Assembly (NCBI RefSeq): GCF_017873555.1
Contig: NZ_JAGGKE010000001.1
Coordinates: 186,001 to 250,000, forward strand
Direction of reading: 5' to 3'
Length of the DNA stretch: 64,000 nt
Source of the DNA: Halorubrum trapanicum
GTDB taxonomy: Archaea > Halobacteriota > Halobacteria > Halobacteriales > Haloferacaceae
Shown here: positions 59,445 through 63,133 of the stretch, in pieces
Numbering within the stretch: the first letter of the stretch is position 1
How the letters are laid out: every line of letters starts with the position of its first letter
The notes under the pieces: model-generated
Database searches by the model: none
Seen by the model: only the letters and a program-made list of their open reading frames with translations
Told to the model about the DNA's origin: nothing
Position numbers and translations under genes: made by a program

Positions 59445-59465
59445 GTCTGCCTGTCGGCAGCGACT

Positions 59466-59725
59466 ATTTAAACGGCTGATGGGGTCGGCGCGCGCCTCCG
59501 AGCGGTCGCCACTGGCGACCGCGAAGAGCGCGTGCGAGGGAGTCGCGAGCGAAGCGAGCGACGAGGCTGGGGAGGCGTGAGGTGCGGTTGCTGTGCGGGG
59601 CGGGACTCAAAGGGGCAGCCGCGGGGAGGCCGCAGGCGACGTAAGCACCGCAGGGAGCGAACGAAGTGAGCGACCGAGGAGCGCAGCGAGTGTGCGGCCT
59701 CCCCGCGGCTGGGGCTTTGGAGGTG
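59466..59725 (-). ncRNA. Structured RNA element, copy 1
   Basis: Read on the minus strand it starts CACCTCCAAAGCCCCAG, 29 nt after a TTATAA box. A perfect 19-bp stem follows (arms at 59693-59711 and 59616-59634) around a 58-nt loop, then a core nearly identical to copy 2 (59560-59615, including CTGCCCCTTTGAGTCCCGCC), a further hairpin, and TTTAAA at the end (59467-59472). No persuasive coding frame; it opposes the 3' end of the signal peptidase gene. RNA status is inferred. Confidence 0.55.
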
Positions 59726-59748
59726 TTCGACGCCGACTCGCCATTCAC

Positions 59749-59754
59749 TTATAA
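59749..59754 (-). promoter_or_regulatory. TATA box of RNA element copy 1
   Basis: TTATAA within an AT-rich run (ACTTATAAAATACT on the plus strand), 24-29 nt before the first base of the element. Confidence 0.5.
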
Positions 59755-59784
59755 AATACTACCGCGGACACCGTGTTCCGATCC

Positions 59785-60393
59785 TTATCGCGTCGAGGCC
59801 GATTCGGCACCCGCATCACCGTCATCGCTTTCGGCCGCCTCGTTCTCGTCGCCGTCGAGCGTCACGGAGCCGTTGGCGGCGTTGCGGAGCGCGTCCGAGC
59901 GCCCGAACTCGCCGGGCGCGATGGCGAGCGTCCGGATCCCGTAGCCGTTCGCGGTCTCGACGACCGGCTTGAAGTCCGTGTCGCGGGAGGCGATAGCGAG
60001 CGTGTCCATCCGGCCCTCGGCCGCGAACCGCGCGGCGTCGACCGCGAGCTTCACGTCCACGTCGCCGCTCGTGACCACGACCTCGAAGCCCCGGGCTTCG
60101 GCCGCCTGAATCAGCCCCGGCGTCGCGTGCTCGTCGAGGTAGAGCCGGGTCGTCACCAGCGGTCCCTCCGCCTCGGCGGCCCGGCGCACGTCGTCGAGGT
60201 CGACGTCGAACTCCTCGCGCAACACGTTCGGACCGTCGACGAACAGCGCCACGCCGCCGGCGTCCGCGTCCGTCTCGCCGTCCGCGTCTTCCGCGACGTT
60301 CACGTCCGTCTCGCCGTTCGCGTCCGTCACGCTGTCCGGCCCGATCTCGCCGTCAGCGATCGTCTCGCCGTCCAGCCCGTCGCCTCGGTCCAT
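59785..60393 (-). CDS. NYN-domain (LabA-like) protein, putative RNase
   Basis: A 202-aa protein. An acidic N-terminal 45 residues precede a PIN-like NYN domain: VALFVDGPNVLREEFDVDLD (first catalytic Asp), VVVTSGDVDVKLAVDAARFA, LAIASRDTDFKPVVETANGY (SRDTDF, second acidic pair) and GIRTLAIAPGEFGRSDALRN. This is the archaeal TIGR00288-like group. Such proteins are thought to be metal-dependent RNases. It sits between the two RNA elements, which may be coincidence. Confidence 0.8.
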   Translation of the reverse strand: MDRGDGLDGETIADGEIGPDSVTDANGETDVNVAEDADGETDADAGGVALFVDGPNVLREEFDVDLDDVRRAAEAEGPLVTTRLYLDEHATPGLIQAAEARGFEVVVTSGDVDVKLAVDAARFAAEGRMDTLAIASRDTDFKPVVETANGYGIRTLAIAPGEFGRSDALRNAANGSVTLDGDENEAAESDDGDAGAESASTR

Positions 60394-60567
60394 GGTCGGC
60401 CTTCGCCGCCGCCGGAAATAGGTATGGTGATTCTGCCGAACGACAGTCCCCGACTCCGCCCGATAGTTTCAGAACTTCAAGACCTTATATTCGTATTACG
60501 ACTTCGATTACGTCCGTAGTGGATATACGGAGAATTGAAGTAGGGTGTCCAAGAATAACGAGATAAG

Positions 60568-60822
60568 ATGTCACAATCGAACGCGTACACCGTCATTTCA
60601 GCACAGAACGATCATGATTGTACCACGGTACGTGCCCATCCGCGCAACGAGACGTACCACGTCGTCGAGTACGCCGACGAGGACGCACGCGAGCGCGTCG
60701 CGGACCTACCGGTCGGGTCGGTGGTCAAGATGGAACTGTCGCGTGCGGGTCGCCGGAGCAACGTCTGGTGCGCCGAGTCGGTCAAGACCGCACAGACCGA
60801 CGGCGGGACGAACGAGGCGTAA
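60568..60822 (+). CDS. Small uncharacterised haloarchaeal protein
   Basis: An 84-aa soluble protein: HPRNETYHVVEYADEDARER, VGSVVKMELSRAGRRSNVWC. Beta-rich, with two Cys (residues 18 and 68). GGATATACGG near 60525 may be the promoter, giving a short leader. Family unknown to me. Confidence 0.6.
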   Translation: MSQSNAYTVISAQNDHDCTTVRAHPRNETYHVVEYADEDARERVADLPVGSVVKMELSRAGRRSNVWCAESVKTAQTDGGTNEA

Positions 60823-60898
60823 TCCGAGTGGCTCTCGGCGTAGAACCTCGGATTTATTGATATCCTCTTTGGTACGTGATCGACTGTACTACGGAGAA

Positions 60899-61012
60899 CA
60901 CCGCCAAATCTCTCGACTCTCATTTATAAGTGATTGACCGGCGATCGACGACAAACGCCTCCAAACCCCCAGTCGATCGCTTATAAACCTACACTGACGG
61001 ATCGGCAGCAGA
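60899..61012 (+). repeat. 57-bp tandem units, each with a TTATAA box, leading into RNA element copy 2
   Basis: Unit 1 (60899-60955) and unit 2 (60956-61012) are each 57 bp and begin CACCGCCAAA and CGCCTCCAAA; the RNA element itself starts in phase at 61013 with CACCTCCAAA. TTATAA boxes lie at 60924-60929 and 60981-60986, at nearly the same place in each unit. The copies are diverged but keep the start block, TATA box and spacing. Confidence 0.6.
60981..60986 (+). promoter_or_regulatory. TATA box of RNA element copy 2
   Basis: TTATAA 27-32 nt before the CACCTCC start at 61013. A second TTATAA in the preceding 57-bp unit (60924-60929) is 27-32 nt before the degenerate start at 60956. Confidence 0.5.
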
Positions 61013-61318
61013 CACCTCCAAAGCCCCAGTCGCGAGGACGGCGCACACTCGTTGCGCTCCTCGTCACTCGCTTCGCTCGTTCCTGCGGTGCTTACGTCGT
61101 CTGCGCCGTCCTCGCGACTGCCCCTTTGAGTCCCGCCCCGCACAGCAACCGCACCTCACACCTCCCCAACCTCGTCAGTCGCCTCCGCTTCGCTCCGCCG
61201 ACTGACTCCAGCGAGAATCGAAGATTCTCTGGCAGCCGACGCGTAGCGCCGGCGACCTCGCGCGTGCTGCTCGGCCGCAAGGCGGCCTCGCAGGCACGCG
61301 CCACAGCATATTTTAAAT
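61013..61318 (+). ncRNA. Structured RNA element, copy 2
   Basis: Starts CACCTCCAAAGCCCCAG. A perfect 19-bp stem (61027-61045 with 61102-61120) encloses a 56-nt loop; its sequence differs from copy 1 at four positions and every change is matched on the other arm. Then the shared core to 61176, hairpin GTCAGTCG..CGACTGAC, hairpin GAGAATC-GAA-GATTCTC, hairpin GGCCGC-AAG-GCGGCC, and TTTAAA at 61312-61317. It faces the ilvD 3' end. Function unknown. Confidence 0.55.
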
Positions 61319-61345
61319 TCGAAGCAAGACAGCTGCTCGTCTCCT

Positions 61346-63133
61346 TTATAAGTCGCGCGTGAGCCGCGGGTTCGTCACCGCGCCGTCGGCCGCGGAGGCG
61401 AAGTCGCGGCCGTACTTCGCGAGAATGCCGCCCTCGTAGGGCGGTTCGGGCGCCTCCCACGCCTCGCGGCGCTCGTCGAGTTCCTCGTCGGAGAGGTCCA
61501 CCGACAGGTCGCGTTCGGGGATGTCGACGGTGACGTGGTCGCCGTCCTCGATGAGTCCGATCGGGCCGCCGACAGCGGCCTCGGGCGCGACGTGGCCGAT
61601 CATCGGACCGCGGGTAGCGCCCGAGAAGCGGCCGTCGGTGAGCAGCGCCACGTCGTCCTCGTGGCCCGCGCCGACGACGGCGGCGGTGACGCCGAGCATC
61701 TCGCGCATCCCGGGACCGCCCCGGGGGCCCTCGTTCCGGATGACGATCACGTCACCGGACTCGATACCGCCCGACTGGACGTACTCCATCGCGTCCTCCT
61801 CGCTCTCGAACACGCGGGCGGGCCCCTCGTGGTAGAACTCGTCGTCGCCGGTCACCTTCAGCACCGAGCCGTCCGGCGCGAGGTTCCCGTCGAGGATCTT
61901 GATGGCGCCCTCCTCTTCCTTCGGGTCGTCGACGGTGTAGAGGAAGTCCGCCTCGATCTCGTCGTCGTCGGGCAGTTCGCCTCGTTCCTCCAACGCCGCG
62001 ATCTCCTCGGCGAGGGTGCGGCCGGTGACGGTCATCGCGTCGCCGTGGAGCAGGTCGGCCTCCAGCAGGCGTCGGAGCACGACCGGCACGCCGCCGACCT
62101 CGTGGAGGTCGTTCATCACGCGGCTCCCGCCGGGCTGGAGGTTCGCGATCTTCGGCGTGCGCCGCGAGATCTCGTCGAAGTCCTCGATCGAGAGGTCGAC
62201 GTCGGCCTCGCCCGCGAGCGCGAGCAGGTGGAGGACCGCGTTGGTCGACCCGCCCATCGCGGTCTGGACCGCGATCGCGTTCTCGAACGACTCCCGCGAG
62301 AGGATGTCCGAGGGGCGGCGGTCGTTCTCGATGCAGTCCATCGCGAGCTCGCCCGCGCGCTCGGCGACCGCGTAGCGCGCCTCGTCCTCGGCGGGCGGCG
62401 AGGCCGATCCGAGCGGCGCCATCCCGAGCGCCTCGGAGATAGAGGCCATCGTGTTGGCGGTGAACATCCCGCCGCAGGAGCCGGCGCCGGGACAGGCGTT
62501 GCGCTCTAAATCGTCGAGCTCGTCGGCGCCCATGTCCCCTTGCGCGTACGTGCCGACCCCCTCGAACACCTGCTCGATGGTCACGTCGCGGCCCTCGTGT
62601 TGGCCGGGCATGATCGAGCCGCCGTAGAGGAAGACGCTCGGGAGGTCCGTCCGAATCGCGGCCATCATCATCCCGGGGAGGTTCTTGTCGCAGCCCGCGA
62701 CAGTCACGAGGGCGTCCATGCGCTCGCCGAAGGAGACGAGCTCGACGGAGTCGGCGATGACCTCCCGCGAGATGAGGCTCGCCTTCATCCCCTCGGTCCC
62801 CATCGAGATGGCGTCGCTAATGGTGATCGTCCCGAACTCGATGGGCATCCCGCCCGCGGCGTCGATGCCGTCGAGCGCGGCGTCCGCCACGTCGTCGAGG
62901 TGGACGTTACACGGCGTGATGTCGGCCGCGGGGTTCGGCACGCCGACGATGGGCGAGGAGAGGTCCTCGTCGTCGAACCCCATCGCGCGGAACATCGCGC
63001 GGTGCGGCGCCTTATCCGGTCCCTCGGTCACGTCGCGGCTCCGCAGGCTCTCGTCTTTTTCGCCGGCGAATCGGTCCGCGTCCTCCCGGCGGCGACGTCG
63101 ATCGTCGTCGGATCTCGGCTGCTGTTCGCTCAT
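61346..63133 (-). CDS. ilvD: Dihydroxy-acid dehydratase
   Basis: A 595-aa Fe-S dehydratase for valine/isoleucine synthesis. Cluster ligands and signatures: [56 protein letters not shown], and [20 protein letters not shown]. About 45 charged N-terminal residues precede the conserved part, a halophilic extension. Monocistronic here; other ilv genes are not in the window. Confidence 0.94.

Follow-up and report, generated by a model that had tools for sequence, protein, structure and literature searches.

Modular, hairpin-rich repeats are known from bacteria: the BOX and Correia/NEMIS intergenic repeats consist of modular hairpins with optional inserts, and promoters occur at the ends of Correia elements. 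Among haloarchaea, Haloquadratum walsbyi carries palindrome-associated transposable elements (PATEs; Dyall-Smith et al. 2011, PMC3119063), which are described as dispersed, too short to encode a transposase, devoid of a terminal inverted repeat, and equipped with palindromes near both ends. All of these features recur in the element that we describe here, which is present twice, in opposite orientations, in a 64,000-nucleotide stretch of Halorubrum trapanicum DNA (contig NZ_JAGGKE010000001.1, positions 186,001 to 250,000; hereafter, the window). It is a dispersed, non-coding, modular, palindrome-rich haloarchaeal repeat. We call it PATE/REPIN-like by its form and do not class it as a member of either kind, because links to IS605-type ends and to a Y1 transposase were tested and not found. 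With a probability of about one half, we read it as a non-autonomous, promoter-bearing, palindrome-associated repeat that is tolerated at gene ends and selected for the folding of one DNA strand.

A preliminary description, made from the sequence alone, had presented the two copies as inverted RNA-like elements with a covarying 19-bp stem. The inverted pair is real, as a repeat search returned it as stretches of 104 nt (90% complementary) and 69 nt (83%). The perfect 19-bp stems and the lengths of their loops can be read directly from the sequence (Table 1), the arms do differ between the copies at positions 4, 9, 13, and 15 with all four differences compensated, and TTATAA stands close to the 30 nt before each start that had been given for it. 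By contrast, TTTAAA, which had been taken as the end of the element, lies beyond the conserved ends (~59481 and 61307) and belongs to the flank. Nor are the copies a special pair: their own genome has at least 123 such places, and their closeness is what chance would give (8 neighbor pairs within 1.6 kb versus 7.6 expected for 123 places). We searched with a covariance model built from 44 copies, from which both window copies were left out and in which five copies from the place orthologous to copy 2 were included. At E values up to 0.01, it found only these two places in the 64 kb, far above chance (4e-29 and 3e-28).

The same approach showed how widespread the family is. In the H. trapanicum genome (3.08 Mb), covariance model R1 gave at least 131 matches at at least 123 places, 8 of them on both strands and the closest two 537 nt apart; these are lower bounds, as 150 of 7546 candidates were scored. 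At ~0.27 kb per place, the 123 places make up ~1% of the genome. BLAST returned at least 57 matching pieces in this genome, where 40 of 211 candidates were scored. Of 39 genomes, H. trapanicum included, 28 had matches, and each of the 22 same-genus relatives was positive. Under stricter filters, the covariance model matched 95 of 146 genomes and 41 of 56 sampled genera of the order, in line with the expectation that other haloarchaeal genomes would carry covarying stems; in a sample of the phylum, 25 of 196 genomes matched, all 25 within this order. Ten chosen genomes of other genera had 12 to 94 matches each. A 22-nt core was present in at least 114 stretches of named genomes and, among the 80 listed, all were Halorubrum except one uncultured archaeon and Halobellus captivus. 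At 30 loci from other genera, the outer pairs CAAAG/CTTTG were replaced with GAAAG/CTTTC or GGAAG/CTTCC and the arms were unrelated, with the loop motifs retained; at least two of these loci (L281 and L313) followed the whole plan through the GCCACCGC end. At the places read in four genomes (G076, G115, G163, and G171), hairpin 1 occurred as tail-to-tail inverted pairs, 24–33 nt apart. Parts of the element were also found, in most cases with no feature annotated over them, on plasmids of Halobaculum, Halorussus, Natrinema, Haloarcula, and others; some of the 21 plasmid records match through a hairpin insert only.

Despite this abundance, Rfam gave no match above the gathering score, and literature searches aimed at the element, including by sequence string and mostly without subscription papers, found no published description; the available parts of PMC3990103, PMC6011602, and PMC3733652 hold nothing on it.

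Fifteen aligned copies from 450 kb of contig C1 share one plan: (GAA)CACCTCCAAAGCCCC; hairpin 1; GCCCCTTTGAGTCCCGCC; ACCTCAC.CCTCCCCAGCC; hairpin 2; hairpin 3; CACCGC. The three hairpins are thus interspersed with conserved blocks, including unpaired ones, and extra hairpins may be present between hairpins 2 and 3 as well as within the loop of hairpin 1. The length is mostly 243–312 bp. Several pairs of copies show sharp ends: in at least seven pairs that are not orthologous, the homologous span begins no more than 5 nt away from (GAA)CACC and stops no more than 15 nt away from CACCGC. These termini are not inverted copies of each other, so that there are no terminal inverted repeats, and palindromes lie near both of them: counted from the 5′ end, the CAAAG pairing begins after 6 nt and the 19-bp arm after 14 nt, and hairpin 3 stops 6 nt short of the 3′ end. 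We also considered a protein-coding gene and rejected it, since no frame was open in all of the 158 full elements (the best was open in 83) and their lengths were spread over the three values modulo 3 (68, 48, and 42).

A unit of 57 bp, which repeats the start motif and carries TTATAA, often precedes the element. All 22 cores of this unit in the 850 kb scanned (C1 plus genome G051) lay within 300 nt of an element, and none stood alone. Of 156 copies, 107 had a TATA-like sequence between −45 and −15, and in 77 of these it started at −33 or −32, which bears out the preferred distance before the start; 96 of 156 had one within +3 to +14 after the element end. Random intergenic windows had such a sequence in 2.6% (upstream comparison) and 1.1% (downstream comparison) of cases. 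Judged by its sequence, the TATA-bearing unit is a predicted promoter only.

We then asked how strongly the hairpins are constrained. In 44 diverse copies, the 32 pairs were standard to 95.8%, and covariation was very strong: the score was 0.409, compared with 0.128 ± 0.009 for shuffles and at most 0.072 for slid versions, and 210 pair cells had changed on both sides versus 5 on one side. Structure-free mutual information recovered many of the same pairs, with values as high as 1.1, whereas shuffling gave 0.36 at most. These results uphold the proposed selection on pairing. The covarying pairs extend into the irregular loop of hairpin 1 as two-pair steps with TC/TC between them, and this mismatch was retained in 40 of 44 loops. 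In hairpin 3, after the 6 of the 158 full elements that contain an N had been dropped from the pairing counts, TC/TC was found in 75 of the 81 stems with a resolvable 2 × 2 loop, the other 71 of 152 being unresolved. Read on the complementary strand, TC/TC is a tandem G.A step (GA/GA).

Among perfect hairpins in the 158 elements, 232 of 291 loops (80%) were of 3 nt, compared with 405 of 1855 outside the elements, and 149 of these 232 were of the GNA or TNC type, compared with 40 of 405 outside. GNA loops confer extraordinary stability on DNA mini-hairpins (PMC4686876). Folding z-scores were about −1 to −7 on either strand. The complement was more stable in 155 of 155 elements, but shuffles of 20 elements gave about the same difference, so that folding energies carry no strand information.

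Between species, positions of the element are partly shared. We scanned 450 kb of C1 and 400 kb of G051, finding 17 and 20 sites, respectively. Where both flanks of a C1 site could be mapped, 12 of 14 were filled in G051 in the same orientation and 2 were not shared; 12 of the 19 mappable G051 sites were filled in C1 and 7 were not. G051 has three closely related copies, of which two are 99.7% identical within the element, pointing to recent copying; at least 100 flanking bases were copied along. Just downstream of ilvD, 10 of 30 genomes (H. trapanicum included) carry the element, 17 have none, in two the matches lie at another point of the locus, and an eleventh copy (G021) is broken off by a contig end. 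At this locus, the flanks can be aligned and the hairpins differ as whole modules. Thus, the family is old at many places, its presence differs between species, and hairpins are exchanged, gains and losses not being distinguished from each other.

Since the preliminary description had favored an RNA, we considered whether the element might be a multicopy structured RNA gene. Transcription directed by the TATA box would begin at the GAA preceding CACC and yield a three-hairpin RNA of ~250–300 nt with a role in trans, such as protein binding; the copies would have spread by duplication. The best argument for this is the promoter unit, which was found only with the element, and the preferred TATA distance, the strong covariation, the conserved unpaired blocks, and the lack of a common reading frame agree with it. 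If transcribed, the element would be a very abundant archaeal non-coding RNA gene. However, on the strand read in the preliminary description, GU made up 0.9% and AC 1.9% of pair cells (13 and 27, the kinship of rows being uncorrected), whereas archaeal signal recognition particle (SRP) RNA (RF01857), in 29 sequences of the genus, gave 5.8% GU and 1.1% AC (86 and 17). With GU rarer than AC and 3-nt loops of DNA type in both orientations, pairing selected in an RNA of that strand, as had been proposed, is not borne out. The unpaired steps are pyrimidine-rich (TC/TC), the tetraloops are GNRA or its complement in just 2 of 34 cases, and Rfam gave no match; more than 100 diverged copies per genome, with whole hairpins swapped between orthologous sites, would also be unusual for an RNA gene. 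We consider this explanation rather unlikely. The perfect stems might instead be due solely to correction between the arms, by gene conversion or loop inversion, without selection on folding. Among 194 copies, 10 carry the hairpin 1 loop in inverted orientation (3 are ambiguous), so the arms do recombine; 210 two-sided versus 5 one-sided changed pair cells in the 44 copies would suit fast correction, as would an orthologous pair with identical hairpin 1 loops in which just two adjacent arm pairs differ, on both sides. Correction would nevertheless erase the TC/TC mismatches that are kept between covarying pairs, so that it is not the sole force and is already contradicted for the irregular loop, and the plan holds in other genera despite unrelated arms. 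As a full account of the perfect stems, which the preliminary description had allowed for, it is highly improbable.

A barrier at gene ends, at the level of either DNA or RNA, is a further candidate, in which the hairpins would stop or insulate transcription between mainly convergent neighbors. None of 37 sites overlapped a called gene; 19 of them were convergent, 8 divergent, 8 codirectional in the same direction as the genes, and 2 opposite. Convergent gaps held an element in 19 of 155 cases, compared with 10 of 466 for codirectional (Fisher p 3e-6) and 8 of 153 for divergent gaps (p 0.04). These contexts came from a crude gene caller, which missed the small open reading frame (ORF) at 60568–60822 beside copy 2. 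There is also a precedent, as a hairpin was shown to terminate transcription in Haloferax volcanii (PMC7237163). The same enrichment at gene ends would, however, be left by insertion followed by purifying selection. In addition, 8 sites are divergent and 8 lie before a codirectional gene, a promoter reading into the element is unexpected for a terminator, and the 17 genomes that lack the element in the whole ilvD locus indicate that it is dispensable there. We regard a barrier function as distinctly unlikely.

The reading that we prefer, a non-autonomous repeat selected for the folding of one DNA strand, has to be held against a number of results that weigh against it. Positions common to diverged species speak against ongoing free movement, and no target duplication was seen at the empty sites in the C1–G051 comparison, where divergence was too great for exact junctions to be defined. 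No mobilizing enzyme was found: of 23 genomes of the genus, 6 lack the Y1 transposase (PF01797), and all six carry the family. No family member was found in 17 TnpA/TnpB loci (12 TnpB, 4 TnpA, and 1 plasmid TnpB) by the covariance model (only match, E 0.56) and nhmmer, a search that reached 1.5 kb from the domain and may have missed far ends. The 5′ end of the unit is not uniform, as other copy pairs also share 78 to 139 nt upstream, and a TATA box at a preferred distance fits an RNA gene no less well. The number of further pair types (41) was not above that of shuffles (mean 42.5), which makes it the only one of five covariation measures to fail. The loops are of mixed orientation (95 TNC versus 54 GNA), so that no single folded strand fits well. 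On the complementary strand, RNAalifold counted 77 GU and 8 AC, which is near SRP RNA and fits an RNA of the complement; SRP RNA read on its wrong strand gave 57 and 24, so that this strand test only leans. The remaining GU/AC tests conflict with each other or hinge on just one or two sites. The first 12 arm positions of 199 copies gave 20 GU and 46 AC, with 27 of the 46 AC at two positions. Another count gave 14 and 31, or 12 and 24 in unique contexts (p 0.016 and 0.065). With looser flanks, hairpin 1 (39 GU, 23 AC) and hairpins 2 plus 3 (3 GU, 48 AC) had opposite signs, the SRP control being too small (6 and 7), and the hairpin 3 signal came mainly from one site (15 of 24). We regard the strand as unsettled and use only the contrast with SRP RNA. 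The folding of single-stranded DNA is what we infer, and RNA of either strand could still be the molecule that folds.

On this basis, one strand, probably the purine-rich complement with its GNA triloops and tandem G.A steps, would be selected to fold as single-stranded DNA, because a trans-acting factor would recognize the folded hairpins as the element is copied or moved. The promoter unit would transcribe the element, and copies would persist at gene ends, where they would do little harm and perhaps help to separate neighboring transcripts. If this is correct, the family provides hundreds of natural covarying hairpins for finding a haloarchaeal reader protein of folded single-stranded DNA. 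A bolder version, which we offer tentatively and hold to be rather unlikely, is that an order-wide and apparently undescribed haloarchaeal element, a promoter-driven, hundred-copy structured unit with hairpins selected as folded single strands (tandem G.A, GNA caps), is recognized as transcript or single-stranded DNA by a haloarchaeal protein and spreads as a new kind of non-autonomous element.

Possible parents were also sought. An IS200/IS605 element was rejected, as no family member was found within 1.5 kb of the domain at such loci; the TnpA/TnpB loci had only short BLAST matches to the element, an insert module in common with it, and hairpins resembling its own in style, and a strong BLAST match beside a TnpB gene (L322) was mainly the shared hairpin insert. 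This insert, a ~60-nt double hairpin (TCGTTCG-hairpin-TGATGACGA-hairpin-CGAACCACG), occurs in the hairpin 1 loop of elements, its core being present in 11 of 158, and in a hairpin downstream of that TnpB gene (G000:C6:77834 region, L322 ~1851–1960). In its behavior it resembles the SMR-A repeats, which target palindromes of PATEs and IS605 elements (PMC3119063). At another TnpB gene (L321 ~1809–1870), a near-terminal hairpin has the GCGAAC..GTGAGC style with tandem G.A that is seen in hairpin 1 of the element; this style may be general in haloarchaea. A viral origin was rejected as well: there was no phage match, and 17 viral-contig stretches with an exact 15-mer, none of them among the 158 full elements, were taken as chance. 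Four of these stretches are within the 199-copy arm set and were left in its count of 20 GU and 46 AC and in the loop-inversion counts.

Table 1. Features of the two element copies in the window (window coordinates)
Feature	Position	Strand	Remarks
Copy 1, whole element	59481..59725	-	CACC start at 59725; 3′ end degenerate, ~59481
Copy 1, hairpin 1	59616..59711	-	19-bp arms 59711-59693 / 59634-59616; irregular loop of 58 nt
Copy 1, conserved block GCCCCTTTGAGTCCCGC 3′ of hairpin 1	59600..59616	-	
Copy 1, hairpin 2	59542..59562	-	GTCGC..GCGAC
Copy 1, hairpin 3	59488..59535	-	Arms GCACGCGC / GCGCGCGC; one A.C mismatch
Copy 1, TTATAA (predicted TATA box)	59749..59754	-	29 nt before element start
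TTTAAA flanking 3′ end of copy 1	59467..59472		Just outside the element
Copy 2, whole element	61013..61307	+	CACC .. CACAGC
Copy 2, hairpin 1	61027..61120	+	19-bp arms 61027-61045 / 61102-61120; irregular loop of 56 nt
Copy 2, conserved block GCCCCTTTGAGTCCCGC 3′ of hairpin 1	61120..61136	+	
Copy 2, hairpin 2	61174..61206	+	GTCAGTCG..CGACTGAC
Copy 2, optional extra hairpins	61208..61255	+	GAGAATC-GAA-GATTCTC plus a GTA-capped one; module also in the copy at G000:C1:357631
Copy 2, hairpin 3	61260..61301	+	GCGCGTGC..GCACGCGC
57-bp TATA-bearing unit preceding copy 2	60956..61012	+	TTATAA at 60981-60986, 32 nt before start
TTTAAA flanking 3′ end of copy 2	61312..61317		Just outside the element; TATA-like sequence is common here

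In the window, copy 1 lies between convergent genes, namely a plus-strand ORF without a Pfam match and a gene with an NYN domain, and copy 2 is flanked by the small plus-strand ORF, also without a Pfam match, and by the 3′ end of a minus-strand dihydroxy-acid dehydratase gene. The ORFs that run over the elements (59464–59748, minus; 60934–61362, plus) are very likely spurious, and the annotated hypothetical protein Halar_0093 (CP002989.1, 70808–71341) likewise has an element under it. The family may explain some spurious hypothetical ORFs and many of the large intervals that separate convergent genes. Three genomes of the genus have a family match, oriented like the SRP RNA gene, that begins 93–115 nt downstream of it (G000:C8:100316-100871, G008:C1:368785-369389, and G013:C146:20214-20818).

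How does the element relate to known systems? SRP RNA has covarying helices in the same genomes but, unlike the element, has one match per genome (29 of 29) and tolerates GU pairs. BOX and Correia/NEMIS repeats, to which we liken the element by description, are bacterial and are not known to have an array of TATA units. REP elements and REPINs are, like the element, extragenic palindromic repeats in high copy number, and the tail-to-tail pairs of hairpin 1 in several other genera recall them, the places in H. trapanicum being no closer to each other than 537 nt; REP elements are much shorter, and the element differs in not being tied to a Y1 (RAYT) transposase, given the carrier genomes that lack one, and in having a promoter unit in front. 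To our knowledge, such a unit is not a feature of the PATE or REPIN kinds. By form, PATEs and REPINs come closest, and the PATE paper also describes, as one category, repeats that switch at a fixed position (PMC3119063). Compared by description, the element is set apart from PATEs: no link to IS605-type ends was found here, and it has three hairpins, a 57-bp TATA-bearing unit, and a range that extends over 41 of the 56 genera sampled in the order.

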